Assembly (NCBI GenBank): GCA_033485155.1
Contig: JAWQJJ010000001.1
Location: 62,001-126,000 of the forward strand
DNA: 64,000 bases
Reading direction: 5' to 3'
From: Methanomassiliicoccus sp.
GTDB lineage: Archaea; Thermoplasmatota; Thermoplasmata; Methanomassiliicoccales; Methanomassiliicoccaceae
Shown piece after piece: positions 41,222 through 60,012 of this stretch. The notes below the pieces were generated by a model that made no database searches, was not told the DNA's origin, and was given only the letters and a program-made list of their open reading frames with translations. Each line of letters starts with the position of its first letter. Positions within the stretch are counted from its first letter, which is position 1. Position numbers and translations under genes: made by a program.

Positions 41222-41302
41222 TGTTCTCAGCTTTCGATGCCAGGACGACAAGTATATATCCGAACATATATTTTTCATTCGATAGACCCAGAGGTGACCG
41301 GT

Positions 41303-42346
41303 GTGGCACAAGCCGCCGACAGCAGTAACGAGGAAACCGATTTTGAGTTCGATTGCCCGGAATGCGGCACTCATATCCAGGGCGAGGTGGACCGCTGTCC
41401 GAAATGCGGCGTGGAGTTCGTCATAGAAGAGGTCACCGAGTCCGAATGTCCGTCATGCCACGCAATGGTCCCCCTTGAGAGCCGGACCTGCCCGCTATGT
41501 GGAGGGGCCATGGCCCCTGAGGCTCCCGTCGCGGAGGTCGAGGAACAGCCACCCGCTCCTGAGGACAAGCACCAGGAGGACCTGGACCAGAAGCTCAAGG
41601 AAGAATTCTCCGCTCTCGTCTCCGAGGTTGGCCCCATGATCGCCCTGGCTAAGGAACACTCTATCGACACCACCGCTTCCCGCCGGCTCATCGACAAGGC
41701 GGTGGCCATGGGCAAGCGCCGGGAGATAGACCCCGCGGTCCGCACCATGAGGGAGTGCCGGGAGATGCTGGAACGCTCCATCGCCGACCGTCTGGAGCGG
41801 GACATAATGTACCTGGAGAACCTCGCTGACGTCGCCCGTAGGATGAGCTCGGACCACCAGTCCATCGAGAAGGCCGTCTCCGACATCAAGGAGCGGCAGG
41901 CGGCCAGGGACCTCCCCGGAGCGCTGGAAAGCATCCGAATGGCCAAGCGCAACGCGGAGAAGCTGACCGGGAAGTACGTGGAAGCACATGAGATGTACGA
42001 GGGGCTGGAGAAACTCATCATCAACGCCGAGGTCTTCTACTTGGACGTGAGGGAGCCGCGCAAGCTCCTGAACGAGGCCAGGGAAGCTGGCGAGAACGGC
42101 GACTGGACGACCATGGGCATCCTCTCCCGAAAGGGAAGGGAGGAGCTGAACAAGGTCCTGCCGGAAATGCTCAACGTCGAGCTGCGGAAGGCGAAACAGG
42201 CCCTGCTCGAACTGAAGGCCAAGGGCAAGGATGTAAGCTCGATAATCAAGACCCTCAAGGACGCCGGCGTGGCGATGAAGAGGACGCGGTACGAGGAAAC
42301 GCTGGAGCGCCTGACCGAGTTCCGGGAAGAGGAGAGAAAGCTCTGA
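41303..42346 (+). CDS. Double zinc-ribbon protein with long coiled coil
   Basis: This 347-residue cytosolic protein has no known function. The N-terminus has two zinc ribbons: CPECGTHIQGEVDRCPKCG and CPSCHAMVPLESRTCPLCG. An acidic proline-rich linker follows, then some 230 residues of helical, heptad-rich sequence in repeating 30-40 residue helices, TPR-like in look (MRECREMLERSIADRLERD; LLNEAREAGENGDWTTM). GTG 41303 follows GAGGTGA at ideal spacing. An upstream ATG (41237) is rejected because the TATA elements (GTATATATCC, ACATATATTT) fall inside that extension. Related zinc ribbons occur in three other proteins at 52-60 kb. Confidence 0.75.
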   Translation: MAQAADSSNEETDFEFDCPECGTHIQGEVDRCPKCGVEFVIEEVTESECPSCHAMVPLESRTCPLCGGAMAPEAPVAEVEEQPPAPEDKHQEDLDQKLKEEFSALVSEVGPMIALAKEHSIDTTASRRLIDKAVAMGKRREIDPAVRTMRECREMLERSIADRLERDIMYLENLADVARRMSSDHQSIEKAVSDIKERQAARDLPGALESIRMAKRNAEKLTGKYVEAHEMYEGLEKLIINAEVFYLDVREPRKLLNEAREAGENGDWTTMGILSRKGREELNKVLPEMLNVELRKAKQALLELKAKGKDVSSIIKTLKDAGVAMKRTRYEETLERLTEFREEERKL

Positions 42347-44245
42347 TCACGGCCGTATCGGCTCCATCTCCCTCTCCAGCACGGATCGCTCCTGGACCTT
42401 AAGGCTCTCCGGGCTCACCGAGACCATGAAGACCGATTGGCGCTCCGATACCTCATCCACCAGTGAGCGGATGAAGCGGATGACTCCCTCAAAGCCGGCG
42501 TTGCTTATCAGGTAGTGGAGGTCGTCCAGCAGCACCACCGACTGTCCCTCCCGATGGATGTGATCCTCCGCCAGCATCATCAGCTTTTCCAGCGAGGGGG
42601 TCACCGTCCGCGACCCTCTAGACTCGTGCTCTGTGAGCCAGTAGATTTCCGCCTTCCGGCCGCCGAGACGATCGCTCACTGTGCCCGGGTTGTTGCGGCT
42701 GAAGATCAGCGCCCGGGCTCCCCGGTCGACCTGCCTTCCGACCAGATCGTAGGCGCGCTCCGGGCGGGCCTCCTCGACGAAGTAGGAACGGCTCAGCCGG
42801 ACCTCGATCTCCCCGATGGGAGTAAGGTCCCCGGGGCCCAGCACCTCCCGGGTCAGGTCCGCGGTGACCTCCGAGCCCATCAGCGAGGCGAAGGCCAGCA
42901 CGCGGTTCATCCCCCCCTCCAACTGGCTGACGCTGTCCGGACAGGACTCCGCCACCATCTGAAGGACATCGTCGGGCACCACTGAGCCCCCCCTCGACGC
43001 CACCCTCCGCAGGATCTCGAGCCGGGTGGCCTGGTCCAGTGGCCCGATGTCCACCACCAGCCCGGACTCCAGCCGCGAGGCCAGGCGGTCCATGAGCAGG
43101 GGGACCCGTCGGGGCAGGCGGTCCGCGGTGACCACCACCTGCTTCCCCGCGGTGACCATCCGGTTGATGGCGCGCATGATCTCCTCCTGAAACCGGTCCT
43201 TTCCAGATAAGAACTGGAGGTCGTCGATCAGCAGCGTATCGGCCATCTCCAGCTCCTGATGGAGGGAGGTCCACACGCTCTCGCTCGACCCGATGTCCAC
43301 CGAATCCAGCGGCAGGTAGGTGATGTTGAGCTCCCTCCGGAGCCTCTTGATCTCGTGCCCCACCGCCTGCAACAGGTGGCTCTTGCCCATGCCAGGGCGG
43401 GAGTGGATGACCAGGGGGTTGTACCGCCGCCCTGGCTCAGCGGCTACGGCCCGGGCGGCGGCCTCGGCGAAGCGGGACCCCGGTCCCCCGACGAAGTTGC
43501 CGAAGGTCTCTCGGGGGTCCATGCGCGGTATGGACGGAGCTTCCTCCTCGCGGGTGGCGCAACGGGGGCAGTAGCCCAGCAGGTCAATGGGGCCGCCACA
43601 GTCCTCACACAGTCCGAGGCCCGCGGTGTCGGAGCGCATCTTCTGGTAATGGAGGATGAGGTCGTACACGCCCTGGGCCTGTCTCTCGACCTTCTTGTCG
43701 CCCGCTGGATTTCCCAGCCCGGCGATGCCCAGCAGGTGCTCCCCAGTGTTCTCCGCCTCCGCCCGGTGCACCTTGTCCGCTCTCAGCTTCTCCGGCGATA
43801 GCACGTGACGGGGGGCTTCCACCCGGCGCACTTTGGCACCCGGGAACAACTGCTCGAAATCTCTGAGATTCACTTCCGAGTGCAGGGAGATCGATGCCTC
43901 GGAGTTGATGGCATCGTACCACAGATACTCCGCCGCCTTCTCCCCCAGGAACCACAGCTCGTCCAAGCCCACCGGACGGAAAACATACAGGCACAGTGAC
44001 GGTGCCCCTGCGCTGATCGAAAGGAGCGATTCCGACCGCTCCCCGTCCGATCCCAGTACGATCTTGATGTAGCCGTTCAAGGAGACCAAGCGGGCGCTCT
44101 CCACAGCTGTTTCCAAGACGTTATCGCCTCCCTTCCAGCGGGAGACGACCAATCCCTGCGGGACCCCGAGCTCGAGCAGCACGCTGACCAGCGCATCATC
44201 ACGCGGCACGCTTAAAGCGTTTATGTCATGGCTCCGTTCCAGCAT
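42347..44245 (-). CDS. DnaA-like AAA+ ATPase fused to a zinc ribbon and a DUF835-like domain
   Basis: This 632-residue protein has three parts. Residues 1-205 are unknown alpha/beta. A zinc ribbon follows (C213, C216, C226, C229). Residues 247-470 match DnaA domain III closely: FGNFVGGPGSRFAEAAARAV, Walker A SRPGMGKSHLLQAVGHE (282-298), Walker B LLIDDLQFL (338-346), sensor VVTADRLP, and the DnaA-type RLASRLESGLVVDIGPLD. The lid reads VSQLEGGMNRVLAFASL. The DNA-binding domain IV is absent; residues 498-627 resemble DUF835. ATG 44245 is leaderless, 31 bases from a TATA box; the frame extends to 44560, but that would cover a tRNA. DUF835 and DnaA parts together suggest a signalling or replication-linked ATPase; function is unknown. 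Confidence 0.85.
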   Translation of the reverse strand: MLERSHDINALSVPRDDALVSVLLELGVPQGLVVSRWKGGDNVLETAVESARLVSLNGYIKIVLGSDGERSESLLSISAGAPSLCLYVFRPVGLDELWFLGEKAAEYLWYDAINSEASISLHSEVNLRDFEQLFPGAKVRRVEAPRHVLSPEKLRADKVHRAEAENTGEHLLGIAGLGNPAGDKKVERQAQGVYDLILHYQKMRSDTAGLGLCEDCGGPIDLLGYCPRCATREEEAPSIPRMDPRETFGNFVGGPGSRFAEAAARAVAAEPGRRYNPLVIHSRPGMGKSHLLQAVGHEIKRLRRELNITYLPLDSVDIGSSESVWTSLHQELEMADTLLIDDLQFLSGKDRFQEEIMRAINRMVTAGKQVVVTADRLPRRVPLLMDRLASRLESGLVVDIGPLDQATRLEILRRVASRGGSVVPDDVLQMVAESCPDSVSQLEGGMNRVLAFASLMGSEVTADLTREVLGPGDLTPIGEIEVRLSRSYFVEEARPERAYDLVGRQVDRGARALIFSRNNPGTVSDRLGGRKAEIYWLTEHESRGSRTVTPSLEKLMMLAEDHIHREGQSVVLLDDLHYLISNAGFEGVIRFIRSLVDEVSERQSVFMVSVSPESLKVQERSVLEREMEPIRP

Positions 44246-44308: not shown

Positions 44309-44411
44309 GCCACTGTAGCTCAGCGGCAGTCCCCGGCCAGTCCGGGGACCGCGAAAGAGCGACAGTTTCGTAAACTGTAGGTCGGGGGTTCGAAACCCCT
44401 CAGTGGCTCCA
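44309..44411 (+). tRNA. tRNA-Thr(CGT) with a D-loop intron and encoded CCA
   Basis: The acceptor stem GCCACTG/CAGTGGC is perfect (44309-44315 with 44401-44407), followed by discriminator T and encoded CCA. The D stem is GCTC/GAGC (44318-44321 with 44357-44360). The anticodon stem ACAGT/ACTGT encloses the loop TTCGTAA, giving anticodon CGT (44369-44371), which reads ACG (Thr). The T arm is GGGGG-TTCGAAA-CCCCT. The D-loop contains an extra 26-28 bases forming a bulge-helix-bulge, described as a separate feature. The anticodon loop has no intron. Confidence 0.93.
44329..44354 (+). other. Predicted 26-base archaeal intron in the D-loop of tRNA-Thr
   Basis: The sequence folds as a textbook bulge-helix-bulge. 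Central helix GCGG (44323-44326) pairs with CCGC (44349-44352). Three-base bulges CAG (44327-44329) and GAA (44353-44355) lie on opposite strands. An intron stem TCCCCGG/CCGGGGA (44330-44336 with 44342-44348) has the loop CCAGT. The D stem forms the outer helix. Cutting after the second base of each bulge removes 44329-44354 and leaves a normal nine-base D-loop, AGCGGCAAA. Confidence 0.85.
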
Positions 44412-45717: not shown

Positions 45718-49165
<3,448 letters not shown>

Positions 49166-51799: not shown

Positions 51800-52528
51800 A
51801 TGAAATTGTTTGACGGGGGTAAAACCACGCTCAGGGATTCCATACCGGGGCTCGACCGGATATTCCGTTCCGACATCGATGCCCCCAAGGTCATACTGGT
51901 CACCGGCCCTCCCGGTTCGATGAAGACCAGTTTCTGTCATTCGGTCATGTCAAATTATCTGAACAAGGCTGGCCAGATCGGCCTATACGTCACCCTGGAG
52001 GAGACCGCACCCAGCCACCTCAACAACATGCACGGGCTGGGGATCGAGCCGAGCCCCAACATGGAGATCTCGGACGTCACCGACCTCCGGGAGCTGGACG
52101 AGGTCGTCGACGAGGAGAAGCCCACAGACTACATCCAGTTCATAGAGCAGACGATCGAGTATTACAAGAAGAAGCACGGTGAAAAGTTCACCGTCTTCGC
52201 GCTGGACTCCCTGGGAGCGCTGTACTCCTTGATGGATGACAGCGAGAACATGCGCAAGAGGATGTTCTATTTCTTCAAAACGCTGCGGGACCAGAACCTG
52301 GTGTCCTTCATCGTCATGGAAAGGTCCCGCGGCGGACCGTCCGATCTGCTGGGCAACGAAGGCTTCCTGGTAGACGGCATCATCGAGCTTGGCCTTGACC
52401 GTTCCCGAGGCAAACTGGCCCGGTTCATCAGGGTGGAGAAGATGAGGTCCTGCAAGCATAGCATGGAGAAGCACACCGTCGAAGTCGGGGACAAGGGCAT
52501 GATCATCCTCGGGCCGACCCTGGGATAG
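51800..52528 (+). CDS. KaiC-like / RAD55-family RecA ATPase
   Basis: This 242-residue single-domain RecA-like ATPase has the entry motif DSIPGLDRIFRSDIDAPK and a modified Walker A GPPGSMKTS. A catalytic-Glu region LYVTLEET and Walker B FTVFALDSLGALYSLM follow, with the late IRVEKMRSCKHS near the end. The P-loop has Met before Lys instead of Gly, unusual but still of GxxxxxK[TS] type. A TATA element (TTATTTTTATTATT) lies 26-36 bases before the ATG, so the message is leaderless or nearly so. It precedes a coiled-coil zinc-ribbon gene by 52 bases and may belong to the surface-protein cluster. Confidence 0.83.
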   Translation: MKLFDGGKTTLRDSIPGLDRIFRSDIDAPKVILVTGPPGSMKTSFCHSVMSNYLNKAGQIGLYVTLEETAPSHLNNMHGLGIEPSPNMEISDVTDLRELDEVVDEEKPTDYIQFIEQTIEYYKKKHGEKFTVFALDSLGALYSLMDDSENMRKRMFYFFKTLRDQNLVSFIVMERSRGGPSDLLGNEGFLVDGIIELGLDRSRGKLARFIRVEKMRSCKHSMEKHTVEVGDKGMIILGPTLG

Positions 52529-53769: not shown

Positions 53770-56700
53770 ATGAAAGGTCGCATATTGGCCAGTAGAGCTG
53801 CGAGCATCATGATAGTGATAGGTCTTCTTCTCACACCCCTCGCTACCATAGTGTTCCTCACGGGTACGACAGAGGGTACCGGCCCCCTGCCGTCGGACTA
53901 CTCGAATGGCGACCGCATCATCGGTTCTGATTATGCGGTCGATACCTGGAGCGTGACATCCCTATACACGATGAACGGCAACCTGACGATCAGGGCCGGG
54001 GGCGTAGTCACGGTTAACGGCGGCGGACTTGTTTTCGCCGAGAATATCGGTTCGGATAAAATCGCGGGAACTGCTGACGACCGCGTATACACCCTGACCG
54101 TCGAGGACGGCGGTAAGCTCATTCTGAACAACTCGACCCTCACCACCAATCTCAACCAGCTCAACTCCTTCCCCAGCCTGGGAGTAATCGTCCGCAACGG
54201 CGGTGTGCTGGAAGCCTATGACAGCGTCCTCTCATTCCCTGGCCACATGGTGGTCGACGATTCCACCCTCAACCTGTGGAGGTCCAACATCACCGGCAAC
54301 GAGGAGGTGGGCGTGTACTGCAACGATACCTACTTCCCAGAAGCGGTGTTCCAGTACGCCCCGGTTCTGCTGTTCATGTCCTCGACCGTCAACCTGTACG
54401 ACTCATCGCTACCCAACATCTACCAAACCCCCAACTCTACCACCTACAACACCACCCAGCTCTATTCGGCGATGTATGATCACAGCTACTCCTTCGCGTC
54501 CGACATTAACAATGCGACCACCGGCGCCAGGGACAGCGTGGCCTACAACCTGGCGAGGATGCCCTCCGCAAAGGGCGCGGCCGACAACACCGGCTCGGCC
54601 CTCCAAGGCCTGAAGGTCTCCGATCTACAATACTACAACGTAGCCAGCGGAAAGACGATGTGGCTCGATGGCTTCGACACGGGCGGCCTGGTGTTCAGTG
54701 CCTCGGACAACATCCTGGCAACTCTGCATGTCCAGTACTATACCGACAGCGGATACTCCAGCGCTTCCACCGTTCAGTACCAGTATCGCAACGGGGCGGC
54801 CGGGCAGACGACCCTGTCCTTCTCCAACACCCCGGTGAACCCCGTCACTGGCACGGCTGATCAGGTCATCGCCTCGGCGACCCTGCCGGCGATGTCCTCG
54901 CTGGACCTGGCCGGCCTCAACCTTGGGTTCACCAACAACGGCGGCCAGACGATACACATCAACAAAGTGTGGATAACCTTCAGGATAGTCGAACCCGCCT
55001 ACACCAGCATCAACCTGGCTGGCAACACCCAGTTCACCGCGGTCAACTCCTATCTCGGAGTGGACTTCTCCAACAAGGAGAATCACAACACCATGGTGCT
55101 GCGCGACAACTCCATGGCCTACCTATATGGTGTCACGGTCGACACCAGCCCTGAGAAGACAGTCTCGCCCGCCAACAGGCAGGCCGCCTTCGTGGCCCAC
55201 GACCGGACCGTCGAGGCGCTGGTCACCTCGAAGTCCTCGAACGACACGACTGGCCAGAGCATTGGAAGCCTGACATCAATCGATTCATCATACTACAACA
55301 TCGCCTCTGGAAGGGTGATGGAGCTTAATGGGTTCAACACTAGCGACCTGATTGGACCACTATCTGGTGCGACGCTGACCCTGACTTACTCAACGGAAGG
55401 AAGTTATGCAATAGGTAACTATCTGCAGTGGAGGGCCAGTGATGGAACGTTCCACAACACCGCAATCCGTCCGCAGCAGACACCTGCGGCAGTCTCGGTG
55501 AGCTTCAACCTCTACGACAAAGGCGTGACCGAGGTGTCTGATGTTAAGGACCTGGAACTGAGGTTCTCCAACTCTGACCCCTCCAACAGCGTGTACGTCA
55601 GTAAAATCTCCGTGGCGATGACGGTCAGCCCGACCATCTACATCTATCGCTGGGCCAACGTCACGGTGACCGACATGCAGTCGCTGCCGGTGAACGGCGC
55701 GGCCGTCACCTCCACGCTCCAGAACTCCGGGGCATCGGCCGAGTACTATACCCCTGACGGGCTGAGATCGTATCCGTCGGATGAGGTCCTGCACTATCTG
55801 GGCAAGGACATGACCGACTACACCATAACCGACAACGAAGGTAAGGTCAAGCTGCCCTACCTGTCGGAGGTTCTGGACCAGGCCAACCCCAACCCGTATG
55901 CGGCCTATGCCTACGTGCTGACGGTGTCCTATGAGAACTCCACCGGCGCCGTTTACACCAACACCACCGGGCTGGCGTTCAACCCCTACCCGGATATGTC
56001 GGCAGGCAACACCTGGAAGATGGTCAACATCACCATGCCCGCGCTCGCTCTCGAGCTGCCGGACCTGGTCGTGCTGCCCCTGACCCTGACCCCGACCACC
56101 GTCTACGACGGTGAGAGCGTACAGGTCTCCGCCGTGGTGCACAACCGCGGCAAGACCACCGCCACCAAGGTCGAGGTCTCCATCATCGGATACATCAACG
56201 GATCGATCCCTGCGTTCTGGTCTAACCAGACCGTGGACACCATCGCCCCCGGCACCGAGAACGACCAAGCTCTGACGGCTGTGATCTGGCATGACGTCCC
56301 CAAGGGCGTGCACACCATCAGCGTAACCATCGACCCCGAGAGGAAGATCTCCGAGGAGAGTAAAAACAACAACGTGATGTCAGTACAGTTCACGGTCCTC
56401 GCCAACCTTGCTGAGCTGACCGTCAGCTCTACGGACATCACCTTCAGCCCCCAGCCGGCCAGCTCCAGCGACCTGGTCACCGCCACCATCTACGTTAACA
56501 ACACCGGGCGGGCGGCTGCCACCAATGCCACCGTCTCCCTGTATGCCGGGAGCGCCACCGAGGGCGGCCAGTTCATCGGCTCGACCACGGTGACGGTCTC
56601 CGCCGGCAGCTTCGTGAAGACCACCCTCAGCTGGAAGCCCACCCAGATCGGCACATACCCGGTCTATGTGTACGTGAATGCCGACCATTCCATCGCCGAG

Positions 56701-59700
56701 TACGGATATGATAACAACGCGGCGTTCAAGTCCATGACCGTCACCATGACCATAGATGGTCATGACCTGGTGGTCGGCGGGTCCGAGTACCCGACCTTAA
56801 CCATCACCGGTCCCAACGCCTTCAACTGGGCCTATAATGTGGTAGTCATCAACAACGGTGTGCTCACCATCAGGAACACCGCCTTCACCGAGGTCCAGTC
56901 CAGCGCCTACCAGAGCAGGATCGTCGTGCAGGACAACGGTACTCTGGTCCTCTCCGGCGGCACTATCCTGAACTCCAACTACAACCTGAACCTGTACCTG
57001 ATGGGCCACAGCAACCTGACGGTGACCGGCTCGAAGGTCATGACTCCGGTCCACATCCGGGCCGATGATAGCAGCAAGGTTTACATCGCGTCTTCGGAGA
57101 TGGGAGCGGACCTGGCAGCACCTGACACCTCCTACGCCCATGTGGCCGTCCAGGACACCATCTTCAGCCACGCGTGGTCCTCCTTCGGTGGCCATGCGGT
57201 GGCCGATGTGACCAACATATCCATCGCCTCGCTGAACGCCCAGGGTTCCGCGGTCATCAACCACTATCGCTGGGTCAAGGTCGTGGTGCTTGACGGCACC
57301 GGGGAGAAGCTCCCCAACGCCTACGTCGCCATCACCCACCCGGTGAACGGGCTGTACGCGAGCGGCCGGACCGGGTCTGACGGTACCATCACCTTCAGGG
57401 TGCTGACCGATGCCCGCACCGCGGGCATGACCGTCTACCAGGGCTTCATCGGCGACTACTTCGCTAACACGACCTACACCTACCAGGGCCAAAGCTTCGC
57501 CGGCCAATATGCCATGAACGTGGGTATAGTCGGCTACTCTGAGCCCCTGAGTCAGGCCAATATGGCTCCGGTGACGATATCCATCCCCGGCGCCCTGCCC
57601 GATCTGGACCCGCCCATACACGTGTCCACGAGCACCCCGGTACACTACCAGAATGTGACCGTGACCACCACCGTCTCCAACGTCGGTGTAGTGGCCGCCC
57701 ACAATGTCCTGGTAATGTTCAACGACACCGGTAGCACGTTCTACCAGTACACCATACCGGTGATCCAGCCAGGCGAGTCGATAACCATCAACGCCATCTG
57801 GACCGCCAGGACCCTCGGCCAGCACAACATCAGCGTGGTCATCGACCCCTACGGCCGGATCAACGAACTGGACAACACCAACAACGCGAATTACACCATG
57901 GTGGCGGTCCAGGGCATTGCAGACCTGTCCGTCCAAAGGAGCGATGTCACCATCAGCCCGAACTCCCCGGCGAGGGGGCAGACCTCCACCATCTCGGCAA
58001 AGGTCTGGAACTACGGTGATATCACCGCCGAGGATGTGATGGTGAGCTTCTACGTTACCTATGGTAGCTCCCGAACGCTCCTGACCAATGCCGTCATAGG
58101 TACCATCGACCAGGGCGAGTCCGGAGAAGCCACCGTTTCCTGGACCCCCAGCAATCCCGGCACCTACACCGTAGAGGTGGTCGTTGACGGGAACGGAGCC
58201 ATAGAGGAGATCTCCGAGGCCAACAATACGGTCTCGTTCTCTCAGAAAGTACTCAACTACGCGGACCTTAGGCCTAACTATGTGGTGCTCAACCCTGCCA
58301 GCCCGGTGAACGTCGGTGACGTCATCAATATCGAGGCGGCGGTGAAGAACATCGGCGAAGTCGCCGCGATCAACGTGTCTGTCTACTTCTACCTAGACTC
58401 CACCAATGGCAATCCGTTCGACGTGGAGACGATCGCCTCGATCAATCCGGACCAGACGGTCACGGTGACTGGCCAGTGGACGGCCGTTCTGCTTGCCAAT
58501 GGCGCTTCGAGCACTAACATATACGTGGTCGTCAACCCCAGTGGGGCGACGAACTATGTCAATGAGATGAACACTGACAACAATGTCATCACCCAGAGCC
58601 TGGTGGTCAACGACCTGAGGGCCGACCTCCAGTTCTCCGACGGGGTAACGGTCACCCAGTCCGGACAGGAGATCACCAACGCCAGCCAGGGAGAGACCGT
58701 CGACATCTCCGCCACTGCCAAGAACGGAGGTAGCACCGCGGCCATATCTGCCGCGTTCTACTTCTATGCCGTGGACGGGAACGGTAAGCAGACCTTCATC
58801 GGCGTGGCCATGAGGAACCTGGCGGCCGGGGCGGAGGTCACCGTCAACACCACCTGGCAGATCAACCTGACCATGGGCAGCTACCATCTGCTGGTGGTGG
58901 CCAACGCTGATGGCATTGTTGACGATAAGGACACAACCAACAACAACGTCTCCGCCGTGTTCAACATCGATGCACCCAACGCCAAGGTCGAGATCTATGC
59001 TCTGGACAGCACCTCCTATGCGCCCGGCTCTAATATCTTCGTGACCGGCAGGGTGTACAACCGGAACACCTCCGAGGCCATCCCCGGCGCGGTGGTCATC
59101 GTCTGGCTGGAGCGCGACGGCGTTCGGATCGGCGAACCCTTCAACGGCACCACCAACTCCGAAGGTATATTCGCCATACAGCTGTACGTGCCTGAGGGCT
59201 CCGACGGCAACTACCAGGTCCATGGGGAGTCGTCCATGGGGGACAAGGTCTTCACAACCTCCAAGAACGTGACAATCGCCGCCTCGGGCAGCGGCGGCAT
59301 CCCCTGGTACGTCTACCTGATGATCCTGGCGGTCATCGCCGCGGCCATCATCCTCTTCTCCGCCTGGCTGTACAAGTACGGGCTTGGGAAGATGGTGGAG
59401 TGCGGGGAGTGTGGTGCGCTCATCCCCGAATCATCCAAGCGCTGCCCCAAGTGCGGCGTGGAGTTCGAGGTCGGCACCGCCAAGTGCAGCGAATGCAGCG
59501 CGTGGATACCGTCGAACTCCGCCACCTGCCCGGAGTGCGGCGCCAAGTTCATCGGCGACGCCATCGAGGAGGAAGAGGACGCCTACCTCAAGAAGATGAG
59601 GGAGCAGTACGAGGCGTACGTCGACACCTTCCGCGAGGAAGCCAAGAAGGCCATGGGCAAGAAGTACTCCGACAGCAAGTTCCAGGAGTGGTTCAAGAAG

Positions 59701-60012
59701 CAGCCGAGCTACGTGAGCTTCGAGAGCTGGCTGTCCCAGGAGGAGGAGAAGCGGAAGTTCACCGGCGTCTCCTGCCCGACCTGCGGCACCCTGAACCCCC
59801 GCGGCTCACCCATCTGCCACAAGTGCGGTAGCAACATCGAGGTGCGCAAGCCGGAGATCCCGGCGGCAGAGGAGCAGCCCAAGAGCGAGGCCGCCCCCAA
59901 GCCCCTGAGGCGCATCGTGCGCCGGCCGGTGGAGAAGAGGCCGGTCAAGCCCGCAGAGCCCAAGCCGGAGGAGCAGCCCAAGCTCGATGACGGCGCCAAG
60001 CCCCCCCAGTGA
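53770..60012 (+). CDS. Giant CARDB-repeat surface protein with cytosolic zinc ribbons
   Basis: This 2080-residue protein starts with a signal/anchor segment (residues 8-32). The ectodomain has two copies of a 120-residue module (about 281-400 and 501-620, each opening with YYN(V/I)ASG), beta-helix-like stretches, and six CARDB adhesion domains. Those lie near 762-876, 880-990, 1276-1380, 1383-1490, 1498-1612 and 1616-1735. A last beta domain precedes one membrane helix (1844-1870). Inside the cell are three zinc ribbons (1878-1897, 1906-1924, 2002-2019), separated by a helical charged stretch with GKKYSDSKFQEWFKKQ. A basic RRIVRR tail ends it. Adhesion or cell-envelope function is inferred. 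Cytosolic zinc ribbons on such a protein are unusual. Confidence 0.85.
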   Translation: MKGRILASRAASIMIVIGLLLTPLATIVFLTGTTEGTGPLPSDYSNGDRIIGSDYAVDTWSVTSLYTMNGNLTIRAGGVVTVNGGGLVFAENIGSDKIAGTADDRVYTLTVEDGGKLILNNSTLTTNLNQLNSFPSLGVIVRNGGVLEAYDSVLSFPGHMVVDDSTLNLWRSNITGNEEVGVYCNDTYFPEAVFQYAPVLLFMSSTVNLYDSSLPNIYQTPNSTTYNTTQLYSAMYDHSYSFASDINNATTGARDSVAYNLARMPSAKGAADNTGSALQGLKVSDLQYYNVASGKTMWLDGFDTGGLVFSASDNILATLHVQYYTDSGYSSASTVQYQYRNGAAGQTTLSFSNTPVNPVTGTADQVIASATLPAMSSLDLAGLNLGFTNNGGQTIHINKVWITFRIVEPAYTSINLAGNTQFTAVNSYLGVDFSNKENHNTMVLRDNSMAYLYGVTVDTSPEKTVSPANRQAAFVAHDRTVEALVTSKSSNDTTGQSIGSLTSIDSSYYNIASGRVMELNGFNTSDLIGPLSGATLTLTYSTEGSYAIGNYLQWRASDGTFHNTAIRPQQTPAAVSVSFNLYDKGVTEVSDVKDLELRFSNSDPSNSVYVSKISVAMTVSPTIYIYRWANVTVTDMQSLPVNGAAVTSTLQNSGASAEYYTPDGLRSYPSDEVLHYLGKDMTDYTITDNEGKVKLPYLSEVLDQANPNPYAAYAYVLTVSYENSTGAVYTNTTGLAFNPYPDMSAGNTWKMVNITMPALALELPDLVVLPLTLTPTTVYDGESVQVSAVVHNRGKTTATKVEVSIIGYINGSIPAFWSNQTVDTIAPGTENDQALTAVIWHDVPKGVHTISVTIDPERKISEESKNNNVMSVQFTVLANLAELTVSSTDITFSPQPASSSDLVTATIYVNNTGRAAATNATVSLYAGSATEGGQFIGSTTVTVSAGSFVKTTLSWKPTQIGTYPVYVYVNADHSIAEYGYDNNAAFKSMTVTMTIDGHDLVVGGSEYPTLTITGPNAFNWAYNVVVINNGVLTIRNTAFTEVQSSAYQSRIVVQDNGTLVLSGGTILNSNYNLNLYLMGHSNLTVTGSKVMTPVHIRADDSSKVYIASSEMGADLAAPDTSYAHVAVQDTIFSHAWSSFGGHAVADVTNISIASLNAQGSAVINHYRWVKVVVLDGTGEKLPNAYVAITHPVNGLYASGRTGSDGTITFRVLTDARTAGMTVYQGFIGDYFANTTYTYQGQSFAGQYAMNVGIVGYSEPLSQANMAPVTISIPGALPDLDPPIHVSTSTPVHYQNVTVTTTVSNVGVVAAHNVLVMFNDTGSTFYQYTIPVIQPGESITINAIWTARTLGQHNISVVIDPYGRINELDNTNNANYTMVAVQGIADLSVQRSDVTISPNSPARGQTSTISAKVWNYGDITAEDVMVSFYVTYGSSRTLLTNAVIGTIDQGESGEATVSWTPSNPGTYTVEVVVDGNGAIEEISEANNTVSFSQKVLNYADLRPNYVVLNPASPVNVGDVINIEAAVKNIGEVAAINVSVYFYLDSTNGNPFDVETIASINPDQTVTVTGQWTAVLLANGASSTNIYVVVNPSGATNYVNEMNTDNNVITQSLVVNDLRADLQFSDGVTVTQSGQEITNASQGETVDISATAKNGGSTAAISAAFYFYAVDGNGKQTFIGVAMRNLAAGAEVTVNTTWQINLTMGSYHLLVVANADGIVDDKDTTNNNVSAVFNIDAPNAKVEIYALDSTSYAPGSNIFVTGRVYNRNTSEAIPGAVVIVWLERDGVRIGEPFNGTTNSEGIFAIQLYVPEGSDGNYQVHGESSMGDKVFTTSKNVTIAASGSGGIPWYVYLMILAVIAAAIILFSAWLYKYGLGKMVECGECGALIPESSKRCPKCGVEFEVGTAKCSECSAWIPSNSATCPECGAKFIGDAIEEEEDAYLKKMREQYEAYVDTFREEAKKAMGKKYSDSKFQEWFKKQPSYVSFESWLSQEEEKRKFTGVSCPTCGTLNPRGSPICHKCGSNIEVRKPEIPAAEEQPKSEAAPKPLRRIVRRPVEKRPVKPAEPKPEEQPKLDDGAKPPQ

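Follow-up and report, generated by a model that had tools for sequence, protein, structure and literature searches.

A 632-residue protein of Methanomassiliicoccus sp., encoded at 42347-44245 on the minus strand of the window (the whole stretch of 64,000 nucleotides analysed here), carries domain III of DnaA between an N-terminal region ending in a zinc ribbon and a C-terminal DUF835 domain. DnaA is the bacterial replication initiator and Orc1/Cdc6 the archaeal one (PMC5333045). We favour, with a probability of roughly 0.6, the reading that this protein is a vertically inherited non-initiator, in which DnaA domain III was captured without the DNA-binding domain IV and would now work as a nucleotide-driven switch in signalling or scaffolding, a function suggested by its predicted parts.

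The coordinates of the reading frame given in the first-pass annotation proved exact, and the gene was delimited by its ORF, Pfam matches and syntenic orthologs as N-terminal domain, linker, zinc ribbon, DnaA domain III (AAA+ core and lid) and DUF835, all on the minus strand. The AlphaFold model, built with 45 orthologs, had a mean pLDDT of 84.6 and a pTM of 0.50, so the domains are reliable and the packing between them is not. The N-terminal folded domain (about residues 21-165, 43751-44185, pLDDT mostly above 80) matched no family in a Pfam search, and its PATAN/DUF4388-like look is only an impression. Alignment showed that it is also kept in orthologs lacking the DnaA part, in which a sequence IMKYHREKS, directly ahead of DUF835, is the remnant of the conserved VYDLILxYHKMRS helix found here at residues 193-205 (43631-43669). 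The predicted four-cysteine zinc ribbon ahead of the ATPase was recovered as CEDCGGPIDLLGYCPRC at residues 213-229 (43559-43609) by sequence and alignment. It is followed by the AAA+ core (residues 242-400, 43046-43522), the lid (401-472, 42830-43045) and DUF835 (484-632, 42350-42796). In every domain for which an estimate was possible dN/dS was below 0.5, the mark of purifying selection, and the gene is therefore a functioning one.

The proposal that the ATPase is a DnaA-type AAA+ domain in an archaeon, and neither IstB/DnaC nor Orc1, was borne out by profiles, PDB sequences and fold alike. Bac_DnaA (PF00308) matched residues 243-399 with 143.8 bits (E 7e-42; Pfam cut-off 23), and among NCBIfam profiles DnaA (TIGR00362) came first with 214 bits, clearly above Hda (106), IstB (26) and RFC/ORC1 (<17), although these scores lie below the equivalog cut-offs of both DnaA (343.9 bits) and Hda (194.8 bits). 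The best matches in a sequence search of the PDB were DnaA from B. subtilis (170 bits), T. maritima (141) and A. aeolicus (99), with Hda (55) and DnaC (14) further down. Foldseek against the PDB placed DnaA domain III first (B. subtilis DnaA, 8bv3, TM 0.90), followed by Hda (TM up to 0.78) and then p97-type AAA proteins. A motif check found Walker A (SRPGMGKSHL, residues 282-291, 43373-43402), Walker B (LLIDDLQFL, residues 338-346, 43208-43234), sensor 1 and Box VII (DRLASRLESGL, 43058-43090, with the equivalents of E. coli R281 and of the arginine finger R285) as they had been described before. The AAA+ core, N-box, Walker motifs, Box VII arginines and lid are thus common to this protein and bacterial DnaA domain III (PF00308, TIGR00362). 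It differs from bacterial DnaA in a one-helix initiator-specific motif (ISM) and a lost sensor-2 arginine, two features that the first-pass annotation had missed along with the folded N-terminal domain, and it lacks domains I, II and IV, having instead the N-terminal domain and zinc ribbon ahead of the ATPase and DUF835 behind it. Orc1/Cdc6, encoded in the same genome, is likewise an AAA+ protein of the initiator superfamily, but it shows no meaningful profile similarity to the window protein, which is missing the winged-helix domain.

Phylogeny added little to this assignment, which is carried by the profile, fold and orthology evidence and not by the tree. In a tree of 61 rows full support separated the Hda pair from the DnaA-type rows, and the window protein fell with its family (99/100); a single archaeal clade of DnaA domains stayed unrejected (AU p 0.46), with no resolution of the deeper forks. 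A reduced tree put Hda, on a long branch, beside the window family with a support of 8, most likely a long-branch effect.

The distribution of the domain was examined in 293 Thermoplasmatota genomes, the phylum that made up our sample of archaea. PF00308 scored above its cut-off in 92 of them, many of these matches being weak and perhaps due to other AAA proteins, and matches of about 80 bits or more were found in 26 genomes belonging to 12 families. DnaA domain IV (PF08299) passed its cut-off in none of the 293, the control being positive in 10 of 10 bacteria; it was likewise missing from all 18 genomes checked that hold the ATPase, from the window genome and from the window protein itself. 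The ATPase is thus kept without the DNA-binding domain. The window genome contains a single Bac_DnaA match and nine DUF835 matches. When 84,980 species genomes were scanned on the basis of DUF835, 42 loci were obtained, all from MAGs with archaeal titles of Thermoplasmatota/Euryarchaeota type, and in 36 a DnaA ATPase stood in front of DUF835; near relatives in named collections were Methanomassiliicoccus sp. UBA6, MXMAG1, QR_Bin.16 and a Thermoplasmatota MAG.

Other architectures around the same ATPase were also detected. Four loci (L031, L032, L053 and L054) combine it with coiled coils and C-terminal zinc ribbons, one family (f20) has coiled-coil forms of about 430 residues, and two (f26 and f34) have a divergent form. 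In L034:1255-2856 and L037:1255-2844 an N-terminal hydrophobic, signal-like stretch, an fn3-like part and a hydrophobic segment precede the ATPase, an arrangement that would place a DnaA-type ATPase at the membrane. L013:243-2342 (353 bits) and L031:592-3387 (368 bits) pass the NCBI equivalog cut-off of DnaA, and automatic annotation may therefore name them DnaA, though domain IV is absent. As related fusions occur across Thermoplasmatota, we read the family as an old bacterial domain in a new, probably non-replicative use. Searches of an open-access library turned up no account of archaeal DnaA-domain proteins or of DnaA-DUF835 fusions; given that scope and the sampling of Thermoplasmatota only, the fusion is provisionally new.

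DUF835 does stand where the bacterial domain IV would be, as the first-pass annotation had it: PF05763 matched residues 494-627 with 80 bits (E 2e-22; Pfam gathering cut-off 33.1), and PF08299 was absent. By sequence DUF835 had no match in the PDB, and its KaiC/FlaH-like fold was read from the DUF835 part of a DnaA-less ortholog (L021, modelled with a pLDDT of 78), which matched FlaH/KaiC in a fold search. No Walker A motif was seen in the DUF835 alignment, and the functional P-loop of active KaiC is accordingly missing from it. The domain has been tabulated as an inactivated KaiC (iKaiC) in archaeal response regulators of Methanomicrobia and Thermoplasmata (PMC5847659), a paper with no mention of DnaA. 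The C-terminal domain is thus common to the iKaiC signalling proteins and the window protein, in which it comes after a DnaA ATPase and no REC or PAS domain is present. A search of IMG/VR returned no relative of the DUF835 part, and a viral vector was rejected on these grounds. After gyrA lies a single-domain KaiC-like ATPase (51800-52528, plus strand), kept in synteny, which is a possible partner of the iKaiC domain.

The gene belongs to a conserved block that runs helicase, HTH, glycosylase, methyltransferase, unknown, TIM barrel, double-zinc-ribbon (DZR) protein, DnaA-DUF835 gene, thiC, gyrB, gyrA and KaiC. The block is kept in four families (f1, f3, f4 and f6) and partly in G282, from another order. 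The same slot is occupied in G027, G040 and further genomes of f3 by a protein of about 350 residues that consists of the N-terminal domain and DUF835 only, and the full gene was not found in f2. The complete architecture is seen in other orders too, which makes loss in place of the ribbon and ATPase the simpler reading. The DZR protein (41237-42346, plus strand) is convergent with the DnaA-DUF835 gene, their stops abutting, and among relatives it accompanies the full or the DnaA-less gene wherever either is found, incomplete contigs apart. As an obligate partner it is only a lead, since it survives without the gene in three g3 genomes.

Several neighbours have features of their own. A tRNA missed by ARAGORN and found with Rfam (44309-44408, plus strand) reads as tRNA-Thr(CGU). 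Its D-loop region holds a long insert, perhaps an intron in an uncommon position; the 100-nt form recurs at the corresponding site in G003 and G006, and G019 has a form of 88 nt. The gyrB gene (45959-49165, plus strand) contains an in-frame intein (Intein_splicing 68.7 bits, with a weak HNH_3 match), and since the full-length gyrB matches of G003, G006 and G036 likewise measure about 3.2 kb, the intein may be present in them as well. Further on, 53770-60012 (plus strand) encodes a 2080-residue protein that has CARDB repeats and, after a hydrophobic segment, zinc ribbons at its C-terminus.

The position of the gene bears on the idea that the protein controls replication near the archaeal origin, either through its ISM on single-stranded DNA or in the manner of Hda with an AAA+ partner such as Orc1/Cdc6, an idea that we consider unlikely. 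Orc1 was found in 15 of 15 genomes tested, and the window genome encodes Orc1/Cdc6 twice (449 and 276 bits), the main gene lying at G000:C1:57588-58670. As this lies 3.3 kb beyond the left end of the window, a replication origin is likely near that edge. In favour of replication control, the DnaA-DUF835 gene is found 45-50 kb from orc1 and in the same relative orientation in five genomes (G000, G003, G009, G022 and G036), and the block includes gyrBA; proximity to orc1, however, is common to all genes of the block. The first-pass annotation had correctly placed gyrB and gyrA within 10 kb of the gene, with thiC and the tRNA between, and had likened this to the surroundings of bacterial origins. 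That link found no support, gyrBA being part of ordinary conserved synteny and orc1, the likely origin marker, standing about 46 kb off, beyond the window. Its report of no DnaA-box cluster was right: one match to TTWTNCACA occurs in 64 kb, with 0.75 expected.

A role on single-stranded DNA would depend on the ISM, for which the outcome was divided. In the window protein the ISM is reduced to 21 residues (43244-43306), and the AlphaFold model shows one helix (322-334) between beta strands 308-312 and 337-341, compared with two helices in DnaA. It is also 21 residues long in L004; L005 and L007 have 24, and orthologs from other families 25, like most bacterial DnaAs, against 16 in Hda. The DnaA-specific insertion is therefore curtailed in the window protein and full-length in the sister families, and the orthologs of f3, f4 and f6, which have both a full-length ISM and sensor 2, speak for the replicative reading, a DNA role being possible elsewhere in the order on account of their ISM. 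The shortened ISM of the window protein is in turn Hda-like, and Hda is likewise a DnaA-derived AAA+ protein without domain IV; but zinc ribbon and DUF835 are both lacking in Hda, whose partners are a clamp and DnaA, and no intact DnaA that could be the target of an Hda-like inactivation was found in these archaea. Missing domain IV and the trimmed ISM argue against origin recognition or melting in the window species, and the protein is probably not an initiator. Moreover, the loss of the ATPase in sister lineages that kept the rest of the protein tells against replication control. Of the earlier suggestion that a captured DnaA had been turned to signalling or replication control, the capture therefore stands and the replicative option loses ground. 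A broader version strikes us as a rather doubtful proposition: Thermoplasmatota would have taken up DnaA domain III early and made an ATPase family of it, and in lineages with full-length ISM and sensor 2 (f3, f4, f6, f20 and others) the domain would still form ATP-dependent filaments on single-stranded DNA. These would add to Orc1/Cdc6 a second, DnaA-derived layer that controls replication or the handling of DNA damage.

The state of the nucleotide site bears on a different idea, that the Methanomassiliicoccus AAA+ domain is a degenerating passenger without ATPase function, a mere structural spacer between the N-terminal domain and DUF835. The sensor-2 arginine (E. coli R334) is replaced by serine in the lid motif SVSQLEGGMNRV; it is also lost in the two nearest relatives and in L007, and kept in L004-L006, the rest of the order and most other archaeal members. 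These graded losses of ISM and sensor 2 indicate a stepwise reduction of an ancestral DnaA-type domain within the window genus. Together with an ISM trimmed in the window protein and in its closest relatives, and the deletion of the whole module in other lineages, they are what a decaying domain might look like. Against it, the Walker A lysine, Walker B Asp-Asp, sensor-1 aspartate and both Box VII arginines are intact here and kept in nearly all other archaeal members, and by dN/dS the AAA+ part is under constraint similar to that of the other domains; we think the passenger improbable.

A nucleotide-driven switch accommodates these observations better in our judgment. The two Orc1/Cdc6 genes of the host, the presence of orc1 in every genome tested and the other archaeal architectures built around the same ATPase also speak for a non-initiator. 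Domain identities, the intact Walker A, Walker B and arginine-finger residues and the KaiC-like fold of DUF835 come from sequence or structure prediction, and an undamaged nucleotide site with its arginine finger points to ATP-dependent assembly. The AAA+ domain would bind ATP and assemble head to tail through the arginine finger, and this assembly would cluster or expose the N-terminal domain and the inactivated KaiC as an output, which could contact partners, among them perhaps ATPases of the KaiC family. With its ISM trimmed and its sensor-2 arginine missing, the Methanomassiliicoccus protein would have given up work on single-stranded DNA and slowed in hydrolysis, becoming an ATP-sensing scaffold. 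The conserved core of N-terminal domain and DUF835 points to the ATPase as the modulator of a signalling or scaffold module.

Two further explanations fare much worse. That this is a helicase-loader-like or transposition-helper ATPase of the DnaC/IstB kind mislabelled as DnaA could appeal to weak IstB and DnaC/DnaI matches, but is very improbable and was rejected, given 214 against 26 bits for the profiles, 170 against 14 in the PDB, and an N-box, Box VII and lid that follow DnaA. Likewise rejected, as scarcely credible, was an origin of the gene in contaminating bacterial DNA, in a chimeric contig or in a recent transfer now decaying. The closeness of some member domains to Firmicute DnaA might be cited for it (L031, 67% identity to C. 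difficile DnaA over domain III), but the gene keeps its archaeal neighbours in at least four families and in a further order, numerous independent MAGs contain orthologs, dN/dS is low, and domain IV is lacking in the same genomes.

The host is a methanogenic archaeon, in which the ATPase of a bacterial initiator is joined to archaeal parts of signalling type. For annotators, some of these archaeal proteins lie above the DnaA equivalog cut-off but cannot be full DnaA, and the DnaA-less orthologs in the same slot constitute a natural experiment on what the ATPase contributes. With a DnaA-specific ATPase present throughout an archaeal phylum and severed from the part that binds DNA, the ATPase of the initiator is separable from initiation.
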